From a virus, in IMG/VR virus record IMGVR_UViG_3300009149_000202, positions 1-28,799 of that record: DNA of 28,799 bases; one strand, given 5' to 3'. Each line of letters begins with the position of its first letter. The first letter of the stretch is position 1. A program made the position numbers and the translations under genes. Shown piece after piece: positions 968 through 13,205 of this stretch. A model generated the notes under the pieces. The model had not been told where the DNA came from. It saw only the letters and a program-made list of their open reading frames with translations, and searched no databases.

Positions 968-1279
968 ATGGTTAAACTGATAGAAGTAGTAGATGAACAA
1001 GGTGAGCCGTCAAAAGAACCTAAAGACATTATTAAGGAATTTTTGGATTCTGCAATGAGTGAAGCAAAATTTGAAGAAGAAGAAATTGGTAGGTCAGACA
1101 AAAGGGTTAATAATTTTATGGCTAGAACTAGGGTTTATTTGAAATATCATAAGTATGATACGATGGTAGATATTTCAAGAAAGAAGCCCTATATATATTT
1201 AAAAAGAATAGATAAGAAGGAGGTAGAAGAAAATGTCAACAGAAATGATACCAATGAAACAGATTCGATTGATGGATAA
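968..1279 (+). CDS. hypothetical acidic protein
   Basis: A 103-residue protein starting at ATG 968 behind GGGAGGT. It is charged and mostly helical in look (KEPKDIIKEFLDSAMSEAKFEEEE), with a basic centre (RVNNFMARTRVYLKYHKYD). Its last 47 bp overlap the start of the ParB-DpdA gene in another frame, so the two are tightly linked in expression. The family is not recognised. Its place as the first gene of the modification operon makes an accessory or regulatory role possible but unproven. Confidence 0.65.
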   Translation: MVKLIEVVDEQGEPSKEPKDIIKEFLDSAMSEAKFEEEEIGRSDKRVNNFMARTRVYLKYHKYDTMVDISRKKPYIYLKRIDKKEVEENVNRNDTNETDSIDG

Positions 1280-2825
1280 TCAACCGAGGAGCGAGTACGA
1301 CGATAAATACATTAAGGAACTCTGTGATACTTTTAAGACAAAGGGATTCAAAGGGGCCTTGACTGTATGGCAGCCTCCAGGAGAAGAATATTACGAGATT
1401 ATATCCGGTCATTGTAGATATTTAGCGCTGGAGAAATTAGGAACTGATGAAGTTGCTTGTGCTGTATATGAAGATATAGATGCTGCAAAAGCATATGAGT
1501 TAGCTATATTGTTCAATGAACAGAGAAAAGATTTGTCTTTGTTAGAACTTGCTGAGTCATATCAGGTTTTGATGGAGAAACATGGGAAGGATATAAAATT
1601 TATATCTTCGACATTCCATTCGTCACAGTCAAGTGTATCGAATGTTTTGTCTGTTCTTAAGCAACCCGATTATATAAGAGAGCAAGCACATAAGGGTAAG
1701 TTAACTCTTTTTGATATTAATACACTGAAACAGATACCTAATGTTGATGAAAGGGTAAGATATGCAAAGAAAGTTGTATCTGGTGATATTGCAAAGACAA
1801 GACTTGCAGACGAAGTAAAAATGCATATTAGAAGACAGAAAATTGTTGATGCTGTTCCAGATTTAACTAATGAGTTGTTAGATAAGCCTGAAAGCAGTTC
1901 AAAACAAGGTAAGAATATTTTCATACCACCAGACTTCAAGTTGTATTTTACAATGGGTGCTGCAGTAAGACTTGACTGGGCATTATTGCCTCAGACAAAT
2001 ATACTTGTTAGTGCATATCATATATTGCATGCAAGAAACAGACTTCCAATGCTTGATGACATTATTAATAGGAGAAGTGAAATGGATTCTCTTATGATTG
2101 ATTCAAGTTCCATTATTGCAATGGATAAGGGAGATACTGATTGGTTTGGCAAACAAAAAGAGATAGTTGCACTTGCAAATGCTGTTAATGCAGATGTGGT
2201 TGTTCAACTTGATGTGTTGTGCAAACCAAAATTGTTAGATAAGTGTGGTATGTCAGTTGCTGAAGCACAAGCAATAACTATAGAAAATGCAGAGAACTTT
2301 ATGGATTTGGAAACAGATGCACGTAAAGTATATGTATTGCAAGGATACGAGAAGAGAGAATATATGACTTGTATTAATGCGTTCCATGAACTTGGCATAT
2401 TTGAAAATAACAACAATATTATTGGTGTTGGCAGTTCAGCTGGTGAGAAGGCAGAGGCAACATTGGATAGGTATAAATTCTGTTGTGATGCAGTACATAA
2501 GATAAATCCAAAACTTGGAATACATGCTTTCGGTATTGGTTCACCTGATATCATTACAAAACTATATGGTTATGGAGTAACACAAGTTGATAATCAGACT
2601 CCAACTGTATTGTCACGTATTAATCAGTGGGTCAATCCCGAAGATGGTGAGTCTTTTAAAGGACTTACACTTGCAAAAACAAGAAATACCGCAATGTATC
2701 AAGCACAACTGTTATGGAACTATGGTGCATATTTCAATGGTATAAATAACAAGTTTGCAGCGTTAAAAGGCATTGAGCCAAGAATAGTTGACGAAGCAGT
2801 TGACGAAACACCAGAAGAGGAGTGA
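1233..2825 (+). CDS. dpdA: ParB-DpdA fusion, DNA 7-deazaguanine transglycosylase
   Basis: A 530-residue two-part protein. Start ATG 1233 follows a strong GGAGG. Residues about 5-100 match the ParB/Spo0J N-terminal fold, with the box SGHCRYLAL (58-66) and NEQRKDLS (95-102). Residues 105-200 look like the ParB helix-turn-helix region (SQSSVSNVLSVLKQP at 131-145). After a linker, residues 228-510 resemble tRNA-guanine transglycosylase/DpdA: MIDSSS with D290, VQLDVL with D327, VLQGYEKREY (368-377), VGSSAG (399-404), HAFGIGS (431-437), and VDNQTP with D453 as possible nucleophile. I see no CxCxxC zinc motif after it. DpdA enzymes exchange guanine in DNA for preQ0. The nearby preQ0 genes support the same role here. 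In bacterial dpd islands a separate ParB/DndB-like partner, DpdB, works with DpdA, so this may be a natural fusion of both jobs. The ParB half could guide DNA binding or site choice. The ParB call is firm; the DpdA call is strong but rests on motifs only. Confidence 0.82.
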   Translation: MSTEMIPMKQIRLMDNQPRSEYDDKYIKELCDTFKTKGFKGALTVWQPPGEEYYEIISGHCRYLALEKLGTDEVACAVYEDIDAAKAYELAILFNEQRKDLSLLELAESYQVLMEKHGKDIKFISSTFHSSQSSVSNVLSVLKQPDYIREQAHKGKLTLFDINTLKQIPNVDERVRYAKKVVSGDIAKTRLADEVKMHIRRQKIVDAVPDLTNELLDKPESSSKQGKNIFIPPDFKLYFTMGAAVRLDWALLPQTNILVSAYHILHARNRLPMLDDIINRRSEMDSLMIDSSSIIAMDKGDTDWFGKQKEIVALANAVNADVVVQLDVLCKPKLLDKCGMSVAEAQAITIENAENFMDLETDARKVYVLQGYEKREYMTCINAFHELGIFENNNNIIGVGSSAGEKAEATLDRYKFCCDAVHKINPKLGIHAFGIGSPDIITKLYGYGVTQVDNQTPTVLSRINQWVNPEDGESFKGLTLAKTRNTAMYQAQLLWNYGAYFNGINNKFAALKGIEPRIVDEAVDETPEEE

Positions 2826-2830
2826 GTATA

Positions 2831-3619
2831 ATGGTTAGGCAGTACATGGAATTTAATTTCGATACAGTAGCAATAAGTAAATCAGGTATACATATGTATA
2901 GACAGTGCCCGAAGAGATTTGAATATATGGTAGTAAAGGATATGGGTTTTAAAGATACAGACCTTCCTGAGGCCATGGTTGTCGGGACTGAGTTTCATGA
3001 TGCTGCCGAACTGATATATGACCAAATAGATAAGGAAGCCATATTAAGGGGAGATATTTCGGTTGTTGATGAATATTCCAAGTATATGGAATATACAGAA
3101 CATAGAAAGAATTTTATTGATATGGAACAACGACGTTTCGACTCGTTGGGTGGTGTAGGGAAGGTAGATGAATTCTTCTTCCCTTTGCACCGCGAACTTT
3201 ATATGGAAGACAAAGAATTAAATTTCTATGGCACATTGGATAGAATTGATAAAATGCCAGATGGGGAATATGTTGTTATTGATTATAAGGTAAGTAAGTA
3301 TCCTAAACATCAAAGCGCATTTAGTAAGTACAGATTAGAATTAGCAGGATATGCACATTTGGCTTATGCTTGTGGTATAGTTGATAAGCCAGTAAAGTAT
3401 ATTGGAATTATGTTTATGAAAGATGATGATGAAGGTGGACACGGGGGTATGTTCTTTGAAAAATTAAAAGAGACCTCTATAAATGCATTTCACAGAAATC
3501 TTAAGAAGGTACAAGAAGGAGCACGTAATAGAATATTTGATGCAAAACCTGGCTGGGGATGTCAATGGTGTCCTTATGAGAGGGTTTGTATAGTTGATGA
3601 AGCACAACAGGTGAAATAA
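2831..3619 (+). CDS. Cas4-like Fe-S PD-(D/E)XK nuclease
   Basis: A 262-residue nuclease of the PD-(D/E)XK superfamily (RecB/AddB/Cas4-like). I chose ATG 2831, 8 bp after GGAG; a GTG at 2822 is possible. Motifs in order: C26 in RQCPKRFEY, H56 in GTEFHDAAEL, D137 in FYGTLDRID, D151-x-K153 in VVIDYKVSK, then E170 and Y174 in the ELAGYAH helix. At the C-terminus, C244, C247 and C253 (CQWCPYERVC) together with C26 give the four-cysteine layout of an iron-sulphur cluster. Such enzymes trim DNA ends, usually 5'-3' on single strands. It lies directly between the DpdA fusion and a phosphoesterase, with almost no spacing. A role in recombination, end processing or attack on unmodified host DNA is plausible. 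It is not a CRISPR Cas4 in context, as no other cas gene is present. Confidence 0.82.
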   Translation: MVRQYMEFNFDTVAISKSGIHMYRQCPKRFEYMVVKDMGFKDTDLPEAMVVGTEFHDAAELIYDQIDKEAILRGDISVVDEYSKYMEYTEHRKNFIDMEQRRFDSLGGVGKVDEFFFPLHRELYMEDKELNFYGTLDRIDKMPDGEYVVIDYKVSKYPKHQSAFSKYRLELAGYAHLAYACGIVDKPVKYIGIMFMKDDDEGGHGGMFFEKLKETSINAFHRNLKKVQEGARNRIFDAKPGWGCQWCPYERVCIVDEAQQVK

Positions 3620-4782
3620 TGGTAGTGAACAGAAAACAGGTATTAACCAGGATTGAGAAAGAAATTTACGATATATTAGTAGACGAAGGTGGAGTAACTG
3701 CAGAAGAAATTGCAAGAACGCGTCATGTTAAAAGGAACCAGATACAAAAAATGTTTGTTAATTTAAGAAAGAAAGGTGTTATAATAAGACAACAAAAAAC
3801 TGGTAGTGGTCCTGGAGACGATGCTATATATTGGATAGATGAAGAAGACGTATTTGAAGGCAAACCTACATATAAGAAAGAATATAAAACACGTGCAGAA
3901 TATGGATATGATTTACTGCAAGGTGTTAAAATGGTTGCTGAGGTGCAAACAAATCGTTTTATGCCAGAGGTTAGGCATTTTGATTTTGAAAGTCAATTGA
4001 GTATTGCTATATTGTATTTAGCTGATTTTCACATTGGACACCAGCATGGAGATTATGGTGCTATGGAATTTATGTTTGATTTAATTGCAAATACTGAAGG
4101 TTTATATGTTGTGTTTGTTGGTGATATGATAGATAATAGTGTTAACGCTATTGCGCCTACAGGTAGTACAAATATAGTGGACAAAGACGGACAATTAGCC
4201 ATATATGAAAGCCTATTGGCTAAAGTCACTGACAAAAAGAAATTACTCATTATGTTTGAAGGTAATCATGAAGTCAGGTCTATTATATCTGACCACTTTA
4301 GAGTAACACAATATATTGCAAAACAACAAGACACAGAATATGGTAACTTTGGTCATCAGTTTGTTGTGACAATGAATGGCAGTCCAACAATTATATATTG
4401 TAGACACAAGATGAAGGGTCATTCACAATATAATCCCTTGCATCAAATGGTAAGAGCAGTGTTGTTTGATAATTGCAGACATGCAGGAAATGCAGATGTA
4501 TTAGTAAGAGCACATACACATGAAAGTGCAATGGGTGTATTTAAAGTAGGTAACAAAGTTCGAGAAATGTTAGTATGTGGTAATGCTGTAGTATATGATG
4601 ATTTTGCAGATAGGGTAGGATATGAAAGTATGAAATGGTCTATGCCTATGACTATAATAAGACCCGATGGCACAAGAAGAAATTATCGTCGTTTTACTGA
4701 AGGCATACAAGATTTGAAAGACTTCAGAGAAATTGAAATGAGAAGAATTGAACCAGAAGATGATGAGGAGGATGGAGAATAA
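3619..4782 (+). CDS. winged-helix metallophosphoesterase
   Basis: A 387-residue protein whose ATG overlaps the preceding stop (TAATG). Residues about 10-65 form a winged helix-turn-helix (ILVDEGGVTAEEIARTRHV, then NQIQKMFVNLRKKGVIIR). Residues 127-350 carry the calcineurin-like phosphoesterase set: D136-x-H138 (ADFHIG), G168-D169 (GDMID), G215-N216-H217-E218, H263 (CRHKMKG), and H299-x-H301 (RAHTHES). These are the two-metal ligands of SbcD/Mre11-type nucleases and related enzymes. The C-terminus is acidic (EPEDDEEDGE). No SbcC/Rad50 partner is visible. Adjacent to the Fe-S nuclease, it probably works on DNA, as an exonuclease or repair/recombination enzyme. The fold is firm, the substrate inferred. 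Confidence 0.8.
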   Translation: MVVNRKQVLTRIEKEIYDILVDEGGVTAEEIARTRHVKRNQIQKMFVNLRKKGVIIRQQKTGSGPGDDAIYWIDEEDVFEGKPTYKKEYKTRAEYGYDLLQGVKMVAEVQTNRFMPEVRHFDFESQLSIAILYLADFHIGHQHGDYGAMEFMFDLIANTEGLYVVFVGDMIDNSVNAIAPTGSTNIVDKDGQLAIYESLLAKVTDKKKLLIMFEGNHEVRSIISDHFRVTQYIAKQQDTEYGNFGHQFVVTMNGSPTIIYCRHKMKGHSQYNPLHQMVRAVLFDNCRHAGNADVLVRAHTHESAMGVFKVGNKVREMLVCGNAVVYDDFADRVGYESMKWSMPMTIIRPDGTRRNYRRFTEGIQDLKDFREIEMRRIEPEDDEEDGE

Positions 4783-5414
4783 TGGTTAATATAATAGATG
4801 CTGGATTTATTATTAATTTGTCACCTGGTGATGAAATTAAAATAATGGAAAATATAGAAAGAGCTGGTCGAACTGCATACAAATCTGAAGCAAATATTAC
4901 ATCTGGTTCAGCAAAAGATTTTGTTGAAATGCTTATTAATAGAGGACATGAAAGTGTTTTAGAACATGAATGTGTATCAGTGAGAGTGATTTGTGATAGA
5001 GGTGTATCTCATGAGATAGTGAGACATAGAATAGCGAGTTATAGTCAAGAGAGTACCCGTTATTGTAATTACAGTAAGGAAAAGTTCGGTAATCAAATAA
5101 CAGTTATTGATATCAGAAAATATTTGAAGGATGATGAATATGATGATTGGATAGAAGCTGTTGAGAATACCGAAATACATTATTTCGAATTATTAAGAAA
5201 AACAGGTTCACCTCAACTTGCAAGAAGTGTATTACCGAATTCGTTAAAAACTGAAATCTTAATTACAATGAATTTGCGTGAATGGAGACATTTCTTTAGA
5301 TTGAGAACAGCTAAAGCTGCACATCCTCAAATGCGAGAGATTGCAATACCAATGCTTAATGAATTTAAGGGAATATTGCCTGCGGTATTTGATGATATAA
5401 AGGTGATTGAATGA
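4782..5414 (+). CDS. thyX: flavin-dependent thymidylate synthase ThyX
   Basis: A 210-residue protein that makes dTMP from dUMP using methylene-tetrahydrofolate and FAD. The signature RHRX7S is intact: R81-H82-R83 ... S91, within RHRIASYSQESTR. The upstream segment LINRGHESVLEHECVSVRV (about 51-69) and the C-terminal MNLREWRHFFRLR stretch are also typical of ThyX, and the length matches. The start overlaps the preceding stop by 1 bp and has GGAGG upstream. In a virus this supplies thymidine nucleotides during genome replication. It sits among other nucleotide genes. Confidence 0.95.
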   Translation: MVNIIDAGFIINLSPGDEIKIMENIERAGRTAYKSEANITSGSAKDFVEMLINRGHESVLEHECVSVRVICDRGVSHEIVRHRIASYSQESTRYCNYSKEKFGNQITVIDIRKYLKDDEYDDWIEAVENTEIHYFELLRKTGSPQLARSVLPNSLKTEILITMNLREWRHFFRLRTAKAAHPQMREIAIPMLNEFKGILPAVFDDIKVIE

Positions 5415-5620
5415 GTGATGATGCAATAAATCCTAAACATTATAAGGATACGGAAGTTGAGCCAATAAAAGCTATAGAGGCTTGGGGATTGAATTTCAGT
5501 TTGGGCAATGTGATAAAATATATTGCCAGATGTGGAAAGAAAGATGATGAGATACAGGAGTTGAAAAAAGCTCGATGGTATCTTGATAGAGAAATTGCCC
5601 GGAGGGAAAAAAATGAATAA
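5411..5620 (+). CDS. DUF3310 small protein
   Basis: A 69-residue protein that matches the DUF3310 family by pattern: INPKHYKD near the start, then VEPIKAIEAWGLNF, and the helix GNVIKYIARCGKKDDEIQELKKARWYLD. Such proteins are common in phage nucleotide-metabolism regions; some are annotated as nucleotide-kinase-like, but the activity is not established. It overlaps thyX by 4 bp (ATGA) behind AAGGTGAT and overlaps queD by 8 bp. Confidence 0.85.
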   Translation: MSDDAINPKHYKDTEVEPIKAIEAWGLNFSLGNVIKYIARCGKKDDEIQELKKARWYLDREIARREKNE

Positions 5621-6044
5621 GACAACAATAGGATTACAGGAAATAAGCTTAGCAGCTGCACATATGGTACATACAGTCGATACAAAATGTTATAGGCTTC
5701 ACGGTCATAACTGGATTGTAAATGTAGAGTTAATTGGCGATATAGCTGATGATGGAATGATAGTAGATTACGGTCTTATCAAAGAGTATCTCGATATGTT
5801 TGACCATAAGGTTTGGTTCATTGAAGGATATACAGATGATGTAAAGTATGAAGCATATAGGGAAATGTGTGTTCAGTATGGCGATGCAATGCAAATTGCG
5901 GTTCCAGTAATTACTAGTGAACATATGGCAAATTTCTTTGCAAAAGAGATAAAAGAAAAGTTCGGACTTAAAGGTGTTCAGGTAACTGTATTTGAGGGTC
6001 TTAGGTCATACGCTACGGGAGTGTGTTATGATGAAGATATCTGA
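5613..6044 (+). CDS. queD: QueD, 6-carboxy-tetrahydropterin synthase
   Basis: A 143-residue enzyme that converts 7,8-dihydroneopterin triphosphate to 6-carboxy-5,6,7,8-tetrahydropterin, the second step to preQ0. Start ATG 5613 is set by GGAGGG 7 bp upstream; an in-frame upstream ATG lies inside the DUF3310 gene. Motifs: H17 (AAAHMV), then C26-x3-H30-G-H32 (CYRLHGH), which is the QueD-type CxxxHGH giving the zinc histidines and catalytic cysteine; D65-H66 (FDHKV); and E128 (VFEGLRS). Typical length for the family. It overlaps queE by 17 bp. Confidence 0.92.
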   Translation: MNKTTIGLQEISLAAAHMVHTVDTKCYRLHGHNWIVNVELIGDIADDGMIVDYGLIKEYLDMFDHKVWFIEGYTDDVKYEAYREMCVQYGDAMQIAVPVITSEHMANFFAKEIKEKFGLKGVQVTVFEGLRSYATGVCYDEDI

Positions 6045-6738
6045 GATATTTTGGAGTATTCAGGGCGAGAGCACATTCGCTGGTATTCCTACTTTGTTTA
6101 TTCGATTTCAGGGATGTAATTTAAGGTGTAACTATTGTGATAGTGCTTATACCTTTGATATGGAAGCTGAAGGTGTAAAAGATATGACTGTTGATGAAGT
6201 AATGGCTGAAGTATATGAAGAGGCTGTTACCAAGACAAAGAACAATATGTTCATTTGTATTACCGGCGGCGAACCACTTATACATGCTGCTGACTTACAA
6301 ATATTGTTGCAGAAACTTATTGCTGAATTTGGCGAAAGTGTTATTATCACGATAGAAACTAATGGTAGTATTAAAATACCAAAGGAATTGAGATTACCAC
6401 AAGTGTTCTGGATTGTTGATATTAAGTGTCCTTCTTCAGGTCATGAATTAAATGATATGTCAGTATATGGTTTGTTGAAAACTTTAGGAAAACAGGATGA
6501 GATTAAGTTTGTCATTGGAGATGAAAATGATTTCATTTATGCACATACTATTGTTAGGCACTTCATACCTGAATACTTTTTGAATCAGCGCAGTGTTATA
6601 TTTTCACCAGTTATACTTGATGATAATAAGGAATGGCCTGCAAAACTCGCACAGATGGTATTGGATGCTGAGTTACCGGTAAGAGTACAAATACAGTTAC
6701 ATAAGGTGATTTGGCCCAATGAAAATAGAGGATATTGA
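6028..6738 (+). CDS. queE: QueE, 7-carboxy-7-deazaguanine synthase
   Basis: A 236-residue radical-SAM enzyme that contracts 6-carboxytetrahydropterin to 7-carboxy-7-deazaguanine. ATG 6028 (or the next ATG, 6031) fits GGGAG upstream; the longer frame overlapping queD has no better start. The N-terminus EIFWSIQGEST and the cluster motif C30-x3-C34-x2-C37 (CNLRCNYCDS) are typical, followed by FICITGGEPL (75-84) for SAM binding and IETNGS. Its last 20 bp overlap the next small gene. Length fits the family. Confidence 0.93.
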   Translation: MMKISEIFWSIQGESTFAGIPTLFIRFQGCNLRCNYCDSAYTFDMEAEGVKDMTVDEVMAEVYEEAVTKTKNNMFICITGGEPLIHAADLQILLQKLIAEFGESVIITIETNGSIKIPKELRLPQVFWIVDIKCPSSGHELNDMSVYGLLKTLGKQDEIKFVIGDENDFIYAHTIVRHFIPEYFLNQRSVIFSPVILDDNKEWPAKLAQMVLDAELPVRVQIQLHKVIWPNENRGY

Positions 6739-7152: not shown

Positions 7153-7923
7153 ATGCACGATATGCAAAATGAAGAAGATAAGAGAGGGATTGAAATACAA
7201 GAGGTAGGTGTTACGGGGGTAGTACTACCTTTTAGAATAAAGGATAAGACAAGTGGAACACAACACACGGTCGGTATGTTCGATGTAGGTGTATCTTTGA
7301 ATGCTGACTTAAAAGGTACACACATGAGTAGGTTTGTACAGTATTTGTCTAGTATTGATGAACCACTTTCATTGAAGTTATTGTCTATGACTATATTACC
7401 GGACATAAAGAGAAAGTTGGAAGCCAACAGTGGTTATATTAAGGTTAGATTTCCTTATTTTGTTAAAGTACTTGCACCCGTATCTGGTAAGTATTCATAT
7501 TTGAAGTTGTCTGTTGAATTTGAGGCAAGGGATGAAGAAGTATTTCTTACTGTAACAACACCCGTGACTACTCTATGTCCATGCAGCAAAGAAATAAGTG
7601 AATATGGTGCACATAATCAGAGGAGCCATATAATGATTAAGATACAATCTGATGGTTGGGTGTGGGTTGAAGAATTAATGGATATTGCAGAAAAGAGTTC
7701 AAGTTGTCCGATTTATCCTTTGCTGAAACGACCTGATGAGAAACACGTAACAGAACAAGCCTATGATAATCCTAAGTTTGTAGAAGATGTTGTTCGAGAA
7801 GCTAAGTTACTTCTTGCAAGGCATCCTCAAATTACGTATTACAGAGTAGAAGCAATAAACCACGAGAGTATACATGCACATGATGCATATGCTATAGTCG
7901 AAGGGAGGAAATACAATGAATGA
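7153..7923 (+). CDS. folE2: GTP cyclohydrolase FolE2/MptA family
   Basis: A 256-residue enzyme of the COG1469 family that opens GTP to a dihydroneopterin phosphate, the entry step to preQ0 and folates. Conserved stretches: THMSRFVQYL (56-65), PYFVKVLAPVSG (101-112), C142-P-C144-SK (LCPCSKEIS), GAHNQR (152-157), LLKRPDEK (190-197), EQAYDNPKFVEDVVR (201-215) and NHESIHAHDAYA (236-247). Bacterial FolE2 forms dihydroneopterin triphosphate; archaeal MptA forms the cyclic phosphate. The sequence alone does not tell which. The start ATG follows GGAAGTGA, and the end overlaps the next ORF by 8 bp. Confidence 0.93.
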   Translation: MHDMQNEEDKRGIEIQEVGVTGVVLPFRIKDKTSGTQHTVGMFDVGVSLNADLKGTHMSRFVQYLSSIDEPLSLKLLSMTILPDIKRKLEANSGYIKVRFPYFVKVLAPVSGKYSYLKLSVEFEARDEEVFLTVTTPVTTLCPCSKEISEYGAHNQRSHIMIKIQSDGWVWVEELMDIAEKSSSCPIYPLLKRPDEKHVTEQAYDNPKFVEDVVREAKLLLARHPQITYYRVEAINHESIHAHDAYAIVEGRKYNE

Positions 7924-8319: not shown

Positions 8320-8883
8320 ATGTTGGAAAAAGAGATAAATTTAATAGGAAACAAGGAAATGCAAGATGGTGTTAGGGCCATCATTGAACAATATGAGGAA
8401 TGGGTAGGGTCCTGTCCTCCAAGCCCAAGTGGTAAATATCATACGCATGAGAATACCATGGAAGAACATATACAGGATACAGTTACTTGTGCACTTGATG
8501 TTGCAAAAGAGTTTAAGATTCAAGGAACTGATTTTGATATATTGATTGCTGCGTGTATTCTTCATGATATAGGTAGAGTGAAAACCACATGTCTGGGCGA
8601 GAGTAAAGAGAGAGGTAATTGGAAATATTATCCAAAGACTGGATGGAGTCAGAAAGATTATGGAAAGAACCATCCGTTCGATAGCAATGATATTATCAAG
8701 AACATGCCATTCGAACATAGTGATAGAGTAAGAGACTTAGTGAAATGCCATATGTCTCATTGGTTAGCATATGCCCCACAGCCTAATAATTTGCTGGAAT
8801 ATGCAATGTGTATGAGTGACTACCTTGCTGTTCATATCCCAAGGATAAAGACTGATATGGATTCAAGGAGAGGAAGCAAATGA
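8320..8883 (+). CDS. HD-domain phosphohydrolase
   Basis: A 187-residue protein. ATG 8320 is chosen because AGGAGGT lies 6 bp upstream; an upstream ATG at 8284 lacks one. HD-superfamily metal ligands are visible: H50 (TMEEHIQD), H82-D83 (ACILHDIGR), H118 (NHPFDS), H144 (VKCHMSHW) and D167 (CMSDYLA). Such enzymes hydrolyse nucleotides or cyclic nucleotides; phage members are often in dNTP metabolism. It overlaps queC by 4 bp and shares the structured leader with it, which ties it to the modification pathway. The substrate is unknown. Confidence 0.8.
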   Translation: MLEKEINLIGNKEMQDGVRAIIEQYEEWVGSCPPSPSGKYHTHENTMEEHIQDTVTCALDVAKEFKIQGTDFDILIAACILHDIGRVKTTCLGESKERGNWKYYPKTGWSQKDYGKNHPFDSNDIIKNMPFEHSDRVRDLVKCHMSHWLAYAPQPNNLLEYAMCMSDYLAVHIPRIKTDMDSRRGSK

Positions 8884-9620
8884 AAAAGGATACAAGTAAA
8901 GAAGTAAAGGCAGTTGTATTAACATCTGGTGGATTGGACTCTAGTACTTGCATCGGTATGGCTATAGAAGAGGGAAGAGAAATCTTTCCTTTGTCTATAG
9001 AGTATGGCCAAAAGCACCTTAGAGAGGTCAAGTCTATTTCTGATGTGGTGGTCCATTATAGGACTAAAACGAGGAATATTGAACCTTATGGTTTCCGCTC
9101 TCAGGTCAATCCACTTAAAAAAGTGAAGATTGACCTTCGTGCTATCGGCGGCAGTGCCTTGACTGATGATAGTATTGCAGTTCCAGAGGGACGTGATGAA
9201 TCGGAGATGTCCGAATCTATTCCCCTAACCTATGTTCCAGCTCGCAATACCATTATGTTATCCATTGCGTTGGGATATGCAGAAGTTATAGAGGCCGATG
9301 AAATATGGATTGGTGCCAATGACGTAGACTATTCGGGTTACCCTGATTGCAGGCCCGAGTTCCTTGAAGCTTATGAAACTCTTGCACAATTAGCAACAGT
9401 CAGGGGCATACAAGGAAATCCATTAAAAATTAGAGCCCCCCTTCTATCTCTCACAAAAGCTGAAATCATAAAAAAAGGAAATTCGATAGGCGTACCATAC
9501 CATTTGACATGGTCTTGTTACAACGGAGCTAACAAAGCTTGCAGTGTATGTGACTCATGCACATTGCGCTTAAAAGGATTTAAAGAAGCAGGAAGTGAAG
9601 ACCCTATTGATTACCAATAA
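8880..9620 (+). CDS. queC: QueC, preQ0 synthase
   Basis: A 246-residue enzyme that makes preQ0 from 7-carboxy-7-deazaguanine, ATP and ammonia. Features: PP-loop SGGLDS (16-21), YGQKH (42-46), GGSALTDDSI (90-99), YVPARN (118-123), YSGYPDCRPEF (151-161), and the zinc site CYNG with C213, C221, C224 and C227. It begins in an ATGA overlap with the HD gene. Residues 52-86 before GGSALTD appear somewhat long and diverged, but no key residue is missing. It is the last gene of the left block; its final 17 bp overlap the end of the opposite-strand gene, and a terminator hairpin covers its stop. Confidence 0.95.
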   Translation: MKKDTSKEVKAVVLTSGGLDSSTCIGMAIEEGREIFPLSIEYGQKHLREVKSISDVVVHYRTKTRNIEPYGFRSQVNPLKKVKIDLRAIGGSALTDDSIAVPEGRDESEMSESIPLTYVPARNTIMLSIALGYAEVIEADEIWIGANDVDYSGYPDCRPEFLEAYETLAQLATVRGIQGNPLKIRAPLLSLTKAEIIKKGNSIGVPYHLTWSCYNGANKACSVCDSCTLRLKGFKEAGSEDPIDYQ

Positions 9621-9966: not shown

Positions 9967-11055
9967 TTAAACTATATTATTAACATCAAGACAGCCGACA
10001 CCATTAAGTGTTATGTCGCCTCCACTTGGATTATTTATATAATTTCCTGTAACTAATATATAATCCGATGTTGATGGCCCGTATACCGCGTCTACAAAAT
10101 TACCTACAAACATATTACCACTTATCACAATCTTATCTGCACCATTTGTATCTATGGCTCTATAACCATTATTTTTGAAACGATTATTCCTTATAATAGC
10201 GCATACTGCAGGTGTATCAAACGTTATGCCTATATCCATATTATCAAATATATTATCTTCAATAATAACTCCAGAACCTGTACATTCAATAAATGTTGTT
10301 ACTGTATGTAAACCAGTAAACACACATTCTTTAACAAAACTATTATTTGATATTCTCATCCAACAATCATTATCAAATTTGCATTTGTAAATCATTGATT
10401 CAGCAATATTTAGATTTGTTGACAAAAATTCTATGTTTTCAAACATGCAATAGTCACCTGATGCTATACTATAAGTATTACCCCCTGTTATTGTAACTTT
10501 TCCTATACCTCTAATCGTAATATAATCACCCATGCCCAAATTGGCATTGATAATATAATCTCCTGCATTGACTATGATTTCTCCACCTGTTGCAGCAAGA
10601 GAATTTACAGCATCAACTATATTATCATAATCTGCATTACCCGCCAAATTAACAGTAACAGAAGCAGTAACCGACCCAAATGGGTCATCAATTCCAATAT
10701 GTCTGTCATTATGTGATTCAATTACCATATTATTAATTGTTGCTACTTCAACATTGTTATAAACCGAACCACTTATATCCCAAAATTCAAGATTCTCATC
10801 AGTAAGACTCTTTAATATAACATCAAGAGTATCTATATATATTTGACCTTTAGCTACAGGAACAGAGTCAGCTATAATAATATCCTCTGTAATTATATCA
10901 TTAACAAATGTCTTATTCCCATAAAATGTCATATCATTATTATGCAAATCATCTATAGCTTCCTCTAGTCTGTTCATTTCTGAAGTTAATATTATTTCTG
11001 TGCCCCAAGTCTTCTTAGTAAATCCCTTTGTACTCGGTGGTGTTGGTACTGCCAT
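9967..11055 (-). CDS. beta-helix tail fibre/spike, copy 3
   Basis: A 362-residue receptor-binding candidate. GGAGG lies only 1 bp before ATG 11061 but 7 bp before ATG 11055, so the latter is the better start. The N-terminal module (FTKKTWGTEIILTSEMNRLEEAIDDLHNN, split here as KKTW...MNRLEEAIDDL) is shared with the two fibres upstream and probably docks to the tail. From about residue 120 it shows parallel beta-helix character of the pectate-lyase/NosD type: short strand repeats ending in Asn (IIEDNIF, IIRNNRF, VISGNMF, LVTGNYI). Such domains bind or cut surface polysaccharides. No catalytic residues can be assigned. Confidence 0.8.
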   Translation of the reverse strand: MAVPTPPSTKGFTKKTWGTEIILTSEMNRLEEAIDDLHNNDMTFYGNKTFVNDIITEDIIIADSVPVAKGQIYIDTLDVILKSLTDENLEFWDISGSVYNNVEVATINNMVIESHNDRHIGIDDPFGSVTASVTVNLAGNADYDNIVDAVNSLAATGGEIIVNAGDYIINANLGMGDYITIRGIGKVTITGGNTYSIASGDYCMFENIEFLSTNLNIAESMIYKCKFDNDCWMRISNNSFVKECVFTGLHTVTTFIECTGSGVIIEDNIFDNMDIGITFDTPAVCAIIRNNRFKNNGYRAIDTNGADKIVISGNMFVGNFVDAVYGPSTSDYILVTGNYINNPSGGDITLNGVGCLDVNNIV

Positions 11056-11067
11056 ATTCATTCCTCC

Positions 11068-12060
11068 TTAAAATTCTATATTATTGTCATCGGTGTTTGC
11101 TCCATTATCAATGATACTACCAACTACGTTAGTAGTTAATTGATTACCAACACTACCCGCTCCAAACGTTACATTAGTCGATATTATATTGTCCGCAATT
11201 ATATTATTATCACCGTTCATTATAAAATATTCTAATACATTACCAACATATATAGCATTTGATACATGGGCATATGCTGCTTCAATTTTGTAAAAATTAC
11301 AACCAGCTATTATAACCCCATCTGTATTATTTAAACAATTAACAGTTTCTAAACTAATACAGTTTATTAATTTTGTACCCATTAATATGTATAAAGCGCC
11401 TGCAATAAATACATTGTAAATTAAAGTATCAATAATATTACCATTGATATTCACTTTACAATTATTAATAATACAATTCGACACATCGCCTAACGTTATA
11501 TGTGTTGTATACCCTTCACCTATAATTACACGGGCGTAGACAGATACAGGTGAAGAATAATTACCCGCACGCACATATAAAATGTCATGATTTGCTGTAG
11601 CTGCAATTGCTGTATTTAAATTAAGAAAGTCACCTTTGCCTGAAGGGTCTACAATATACATGGTCGCTCTTGGCACAACATCCCCCCCACCACTACCTCT
11701 AGGCGAATGTCTCATTCCATGAAGCTGTGGGTATACATCATTTACCAACCTTGTAACAAAATTCCCTAGAGAACCGTTTTGTAGAATTCGTGTGGAGAGT
11801 CCACCTGATTGTTGTATCCCTAAAGATATTCCTGAATATGTATAAAATGTACCATTAAGTGTAGGTGCAGAACTATCTTCGACTTTTAAATCCTTTGTAC
11901 TTGTTTCACAATTAGTTATCCATAACGTTTTCAGAAACGTTTTTTCTCCATTAATGGTCATGTTATTATTAAATAAGTCATCGAGACCATCCTCTATGTT
12001 TTGCATTTCTGCAGCAGATATGTTATTTGCTGAAACCCATGTCTTTTTCGAAAACGCCAT
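11068..12060 (-). CDS. beta-helix tail fibre/spike, copy 2
   Basis: A 330-residue paralogue of its neighbours, start ATG 12060 behind GGTGAT. The head module (FSKKTWVSANNISAAEMQ, then IEDGLDDLFNNNMT) aligns with copy 3. The body after about residue 130 (TMYIVDPSGKGDFLNLNTAI, YVRAGNYSS) opens as a right-handed beta-helix and goes on with NCIINNCKVN- and NVLEYFIMN-type turns. The C-terminal part differs from the other copies, which suggests different receptor specificity. It is 6 bp from copy 3. Confidence 0.8.
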   Translation of the reverse strand: MAFSKKTWVSANNISAAEMQNIEDGLDDLFNNNMTINGEKTFLKTLWITNCETSTKDLKVEDSSAPTLNGTFYTYSGISLGIQQSGGLSTRILQNGSLGNFVTRLVNDVYPQLHGMRHSPRGSGGGDVVPRATMYIVDPSGKGDFLNLNTAIAATANHDILYVRAGNYSSPVSVYARVIIGEGYTTHITLGDVSNCIINNCKVNINGNIIDTLIYNVFIAGALYILMGTKLINCISLETVNCLNNTDGVIIAGCNFYKIEAAYAHVSNAIYVGNVLEYFIMNGDNNIIADNIISTNVTFGAGSVGNQLTTNVVGSIIDNGANTDDNNIEF

Positions 12061-12068
12061 TATATCAC

Positions 12069-13205
12069 CTAAGTTATATTACCATATGTAATACTGCCAG
12101 CACCCAAATTGGTTATAGCTGTACCAACAATATTTAACACTATATTATTACGTATTATCGTCTTACCACTGGCTGAATAAATTCCACTCCAAAAATCATC
12201 AATATAATTATCTTCAATTATTGCTCTTCCTAAACTTACATCGATTGCTATTGAAGTTGTACCATTTCCTTCATAAATATAATTACCCTTGACTATATTA
12301 TAATAACCACTATTTATGCTAACACATTTTGAATCTCCGCCTAATCCACGAATATCATTATAAGATATTATATTATAATCTCCACCATTAATATATATAT
12401 TATGTACAATACCTGCAACACTCATATGATACAAAGTGCAATGTGACACATTATTATTGCTTCCTGTAATTACTATTGAACTAACCGTTGTGGTCCACAC
12501 ATCATTTCTTATGGTAATACCTCTTACTATATTATTATCGCCACTTACAATAAGTGATACTGTAGCATATGTAAATGATACTGCCATATTTTCAAAAACA
12601 ATATTATCACCCGCTATATCAATAGTATAAGTCAAACCGGCTGGTGCATTAAGTTCTGTATGATTACCACTGCCAATGATAGTTAAATTATTTGTTGAAA
12701 TTGTAATATTAGAAGTTATTTCATAAGCCCCTGGTTCTATATATATTTTATCACCAGAAACCGCAGCTGCTAATGCGAGTTGCAAAGTTGCATAATCCCC
12801 ATCAGGCCCTACTATTATTTGTGCACCTTTAGTAATATAATCACTACCACCGTGCATATGCCTAAGATGATGATTTTCTACAACAACACCATTAATAGAA
12901 CCCAAATCTACATTTTCGGTAGAACCAGAACTGTCCAAACATTTAACAGAACCACCCAATGAATCGATATACATACCTTTGGCTGCTTCTATTCCAATAA
13001 CGCCTCTAAGGTCAACTCCATCCATCAGTTCTATTCTTGCACCATTAGGATTCTTATCTATAACAAGAGCATCTTCGAACATTTTAATATTATCAACATC
13101 AGATACATTTTGATTATACCAATCATCAATACCAGTTTCAATTCTATTGAGCTCTGTAGCACTTATCTTTTCTGCGGTTACCCAAAGCTTTTTGACGAAT
13201 GTCAT
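12069..13205 (-). CDS. beta-helix tail fibre/spike, copy 1
   Basis: A 378-residue fibre with AGGAGGT before ATG 13205. The head (FVKKLWVTAEKISATELN, then RIETGIDDWYNQN) matches copies 2 and 3 but is more diverged. The body has the beta-helix opening QIIVGPDGDYATLQLALAAA and IYIEPGAYEI, then repeated strand-turn units rich in NNLT, NNIV, NNNVSH and YNIV. It directly follows the tail-protein genes, so it may be the original fibre, with copies 2 and 3 derived by duplication. Confidence 0.8.
   Translation of the reverse strand: MTFVKKLWVTAEKISATELNRIETGIDDWYNQNVSDVDNIKMFEDALVIDKNPNGARIELMDGVDLRGVIGIEAAKGMYIDSLGGSVKCLDSSGSTENVDLGSINGVVVENHHLRHMHGGSDYITKGAQIIVGPDGDYATLQLALAAAVSGDKIYIEPGAYEITSNITISTNNLTIIGSGNHTELNAPAGLTYTIDIAGDNIVFENMAVSFTYATVSLIVSGDNNIVRGITIRNDVWTTTVSSIVITGSNNNVSHCTLYHMSVAGIVHNIYINGGDYNIISYNDIRGLGGDSKCVSINSGYYNIVKGNYIYEGNGTTSIAIDVSLGRAIIEDNYIDDFWSGIYSASGKTIIRNNIVLNIVGTAITNLGAGSITYGNIT

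Follow-up and report, generated by a model that had tools for sequence, protein, structure and literature searches.

The window, i.e. the whole 28,799-nucleotide stretch analysed, comes from a tailed virus and carries on its plus strand (1233–2825) a single uninterrupted open reading frame for a ParB-DpdA fusion protein of 530 aa, with an ATG start and a strong Shine-Dalgarno sequence (AAGGAGG) 5' of it. Pfam matches above the gathering score confirmed the original prediction that both modules lie in one polypeptide, with ParB_N at residues 4–95 (5.6e-10), HTH_ParB at residues 99–186 (5.3e-10), DpdA (PF23859) at residues 324–461 (9.1e-13; 48.3 bits, cut-off 27) and TGT (PF01702) at residues 305–466 (1.3e-6), the C-terminal half scoring higher for DpdA than for TGT (28.2 bits). 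PHROGs and NCBIfam concurred in placing ParB-like families at the N-terminus, and the C-terminus matched PHROG 1279, the phage queuine tRNA-ribosyltransferase (1.7e-16). The residues predicted from the sequence were all located, namely box II (SGHCRYLA, 58–65), D290, D327, LQGY (369–372) and D453. Three parts could be delimited, all on the plus strand: a ParB_N and ParB helix-turn-helix module at about residues 2–200 (1236–1832; PF02195/PF17762), a poorly conserved linker at residues 201–230 (1833–1922), and a TGT/DpdA barrel at residues 231–516 (1923–2780). A small conserved open reading frame of no known family (968–1279, +) overlaps the start of the fusion gene and is 56% identical to its counterpart in a related viral record, L007.

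The preQ0 pathway is complete downstream of the fusion gene, in genes that all lie on the plus strand. Profile matches identified a QueD-like protein of the PTPS family (5613–6044) and a QueE-like radical SAM protein (5992–6738, listed from a TTG, the true start probably being a downstream ATG), followed by the GTP cyclohydrolase FolE2 (7153–7923; 3.6e-84) and QueC (8880–9620; 2.5e-69), the latter two over their NCBIfam cut-offs. QueF was not found in the 28.8 kb record, which is a fragment, and QueC has no amidotransferase domain; the simplest product predicted from the gene content is therefore dPreQ0. Other genes in the neighbourhood include a metallophosphoesterase (3619–4782, +) that begins with a winged helix of the TrmB/TFIIE type, an arrangement that recurs in L007 at 68% identity, and ThyX (4782–5414, +), which lies between the nuclease genes and queD and has no L007 counterpart. 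On the minus strand, three tandem paralogous genes (9967–13205) have an N-terminal segment in common (FTKKxW...ELNRIE...), and their C-terminal halves are repetitive; these are probably tail fibres, and L007 likewise has three. The virion proteins gave mixed matches, the capsid to a Methanomicrobiales-associated virus, the sheath to the Halobacterium virus ChaoS9 and the baseplate to bacteriophages. No host copy was found in two scans of genome contigs.

FolE2 is rare in viruses, and a FolE2 search of viral records led to L007, while a further scan led to L011 and then to L093; the relatives found are a lower bound. The same domain pair was present in L007 as a fusion of 539 aa with 75% identity and the same gene order, and in L093 with both halves retained at 52% identity overall, so that in these close relatives the two halves are joined and not separate proteins. 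A fourth copy (L011/L092) starts within the linker at a contig end, with the gene order of the window (PDDEXK, QueD, QueE, FolE2, QueC); the preQ0 gene block is syntenic in L007 and L092. As the fusion is kept in independent viral contigs, a chimeric assembly was rejected, and chance and two separate genes were likewise excluded. In the 14 kb of L093 examined, the fusion was the only gene detected in common with the window, and from this comparison it therefore appears to have been transmitted as a unit; QueC and FolE2 were absent from the L093 record, which is incomplete. The L093 reading frame (4738–6183) stops after RINQ, just past the catalytic Asp motif, with the C-terminal piece in another frame, and this frameshifted copy may be inactive, representing a natural truncation or a sequencing error. 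The L093 record also carries a sulfotransferase-domain gene (10688–11422) beside its terminase region. Identity to L007 was 83% for the TGT half versus 72% for the ParB half, and pN/pS values against L007 (Nei-Gojobori) were 0.18/0.72 for the ParB half, 0.44/0.64 for the linker and 0.13/0.74 for the TGT half; in this comparison purifying selection acts on both halves, and the linker is relaxed.

An AlphaFold2 model of the fusion, built from 21 viral sequences, had a mean pLDDT of 85.7 and a pTM of 0.59, with a weak linker at residues 221–226 and a barrel made of eight strands that lie between residues 236 and 454. Residues 231–516 of the model superimposed on the archaeosine TGT 1iq8 with a Z of 23.8 and an rmsd of 3.3 over 270 residues (VIA-align), and Foldseek matched the C-terminal half to TGTs and to the crystal structure of the DNA preQ0 insertase DpdA (7ui4, 1.8e-8), placing it in the TGT/DpdA fold within the boundary of 228–530 that had been predicted. 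D290, D327, Q370, G371, H431 and D453 were invariant across the alignment of 21 viral DpdA-like proteins. Pairing by motif related MIDSSS (D290) to TDSGGF (D89) and LDVLCKP (D327) to FDECTP (D143) of the E. coli TGT, and a profile alignment, weak alone (E 0.06), related VLQGY (Q370-G371) to IIQGS (Q187-G188) and VDNQTP (D453) to FDCVMP (D264). The DSSS context of D290, versus the usual DSGGF, counts against the DpdA reading. The C-terminal zinc site of TGTs (CxCxxC...H) is absent, the fusion having no Cys after residue 418, and these cysteines are likewise missing in several viral DpdA proteins. Against the NCBIfam model of bacterial dpd-island DpdA (NF041059), the fusion scored 25 bits and did not reach the equivalog cut-off of 200, and its C-terminal half is therefore distinct, at the level of sequence profiles, from the bacterial island DpdA. 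A profile of the viral DpdA-like alignment gave chance-level matches only when compared to PDB sequences.

The N-terminal half is a canonical ParB of the Spo0J/Noc kind (PDB 1vz0, 5e-19; NCBIfam Noc, 2e-28), with Foldseek matches to Noc and ParB structures, among them the Noc structure 7ol9 (1.6e-12). The original prediction had drawn a parallel with DpdB, the partner of DpdA in bacterial islands, but this parallel was not borne out: the ParB half had no DpdB or DndB match in NCBIfam or PADLOC, libraries that may or may not each include a DpdB model, and on these profile searches a DpdB-type partner is disfavoured. In the alignment to 1vz0, GERR corresponds to G59-H-C-R62 and ENLQR to F94-N95-E-Q-R98, so that G59 and N95 of the CTP pocket are retained and H60 and F94 stand in place of E78 and E111. 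In Bacillus subtilis ParB, substitutions at the E78 and E111 positions abolish CTP hydrolysis while CTP binding and clamp closure remain, and PadC, likewise without both glutamates, binds CTP without hydrolysis (PMC8494293). Since both hydrolysis glutamates are replaced, the ParB half is predicted to bind CTP without hydrolysis, if it binds at all; this binding is uncertain because R62 is not clearly kept in the L093 copy. The C-terminal dimerisation domain of ParB is also missing, the C-terminus being the TGT barrel. TGTs are generally dimeric, and one speculation is that the barrel could supply the dimer contact that normally comes from the ParB C-terminus. The suggestion of nucleotide-driven DNA clamping is thus still possible, but it is weakened by the replacement of the hydrolysis glutamates and by the missing dimer domain.

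In a search of 50 DpdA-bearing viral records, ParB_N was found within the DpdA reading frame only in L007, ruling out the idea that such fusions are common among viral DpdA proteins. L011 is also among the 50, with its gene cut before the ParB part, and none of the 48 others had ParB_N fused to DpdA; in the record of L088, ParB_N was matched weakly at a distance of about 4 kb. The viral ParB proteins A0A6J5RUN9 and A0A0F7L836 gave whole-length structural matches with very high rmsd. Further ParB-DpdA fusions may exist beyond those found. Within the literature searched, to which the claim of novelty is confined, no ParB-DpdA fusion was described; a 2023 study reportedly treats further DpdA subfamilies and might include one. 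The fusion is apparently an undescribed and rare one-protein version of a pair known as neighbouring genes.

Such neighbouring pairs are found in several isolated actinobacteriophages. In Gordonia phage Sour, a ParB-like gene 1 overlaps dpdA (gene 2) by 4 bases and is followed by queC, queD, queE and folE; this arrangement recurs in Mycobacterium phage Arbiter, whose gene 1 is labelled as a transcriptional regulator; and in Arthrobacter phage Mufasa8, dpdA is followed by a ParB gene whose product, gp91, matches ParB_N (8.8e-10). Sour gp1 and Arbiter gp1 reach no Pfam family, their ParB label coming from the deposited annotation or from the study that proposed a ParB identity for the CRB2 counterpart (PMC6392294). 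The dpdA products of Sour, Arbiter and Mufasa8 likewise reach no Pfam family, and that of Mufasa8 was present among the structural-search matches. Like the window, Sour, the Rosebush-group phages (Arbiter, CRB2) and Mufasa8 combine a ParB-type gene with dpdA and a queC/D/E and folE set. However, theirs are two genes overlapping by a few bases, their ParB-type proteins are very distant from that of the fusion (only Mufasa8 gp91 reaches ParB_N), and they have an annotated GTP cyclohydrolase I where the window has FolE2. The DpdA of other phages (PF23859, PHROG 1279; for example in mycobacteriophages Bella96 and Mufasa) shares the barrel and catalytic residues at 28–31% identity over the matched stretch, but is without a ParB part. 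With the bacterial dpd-island DpdA (7ui4) the fusion shares the transglycosylase fold, as well as GVTxxDxxTP, a motif of the active site, whereas its canonical Spo0J/Noc half gave no DpdB/DndB profile match; the adjacent ParB-type gene and dpdA of phages are the better precedent. Compared to the CTP-dependent clamps ParB, Spo0J and Noc, the ParB_N and HTH fold is the same, but a TGT barrel replaces the dimer domain, both hydrolysis glutamates are lost and no ParA was found. The halovirus HVTV-1, an archaeal tailed virus known for 7-deazaguanine, likewise has its own preQ0/preQ1 locus, but its gene 69 product (HVTV1_69, DUF6610), unlike the fusion, has no ParB domain match. Gene 69 (L002, 33803–34963) lies beside GTP cyclohydrolase and radical SAM genes, and is a candidate for the transglycosylase missing from this archaeal virus.

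The reading we favour, with a probability of roughly 0.75, is that the fusion is a DpdA-type transglycosylase for preQ0 that is self-contained and tethered to DNA, with a ParB module in place of a separate ParB-type protein. The fusion, folds, catalytic residues, pathway and conservation are seen in the sequence and the model, and from there we infer DNA as the substrate, preQ0 as the base, and roles in genome protection and tethering. FolE2, QueD, QueE and QueC would make preQ0 from GTP, and the DpdA/TGT half would swap guanine in viral DNA for preQ0, most likely as a shield against host nucleases. The enzyme would be kept on double-stranded DNA by its N-terminal ParB/HTH module, a function that in other phages would fall to the ParB-type protein encoded on its own beside dpdA; by being fused, ParB and transglycosylase would be set at 1:1. 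In the most speculative step, the ParB module may bind CTP without hydrolysis and stay closed on DNA. The extension of this step to clamp-tethered base exchange, in which a CTP-bound closed ParB slides, the TGT supplies the dimer contact and many guanines are replaced per loading, is tentative and somewhat doubtful.

A possible, if less probable, alternative is that the ParB half reads the DNA in a sequence-specific way, with guanines modified only near HTH-bound viral sites, as ParB_N-methyltransferase fusions might do. The HTH_ParB domain and the frequent fusion of ParB domains to phage DNA methyltransferases (PMC12783734) are consistent with this, as are the phage ParB matches that include DNA modification methylases; against it, no parS-like, Noc-like or common palindromic site was found in the window or between relatives. 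Similarly, no parS or Noc site occurred above chance in the window and no ParA was found in the four fusion-bearing records, all of them fragments, so a partition system is unlikely. That the fusion serves chiefly as a ParB for partition or transcription regulation, with the TGT half as a relic, would fit the well-conserved ParB core, but this has only the slightest probability given intact catalytic residues, the lack of ParA in these four fragments and the better conservation of the TGT half noted above.

It is also quite improbable, though less extremely so, that the fusion works on host tRNA and not DNA, as a tRNA-guanine transglycosylase equipped with an accessory domain. The barrel is structurally closest to tRNA TGTs (Z 23.8), whereas the higher Pfam score for DpdA, the lack of the zinc site, the fusion of a DNA-binding ParB core to the barrel and the virus's own preQ0 supply all argue against this alternative.

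Under the favoured reading of a DNA-tethered transglycosylase, the fusion links the ParB-type partners of phage dpdA, so far unexplained, to the transglycosylase in a single molecule and implies that the two act jointly. It is also a single protein in which cuts at the linker would allow ParB's part in DNA base exchange to be dissected. Should the clamp model hold, a ParB clamp would here serve processive DNA modification, not chromosome segregation.
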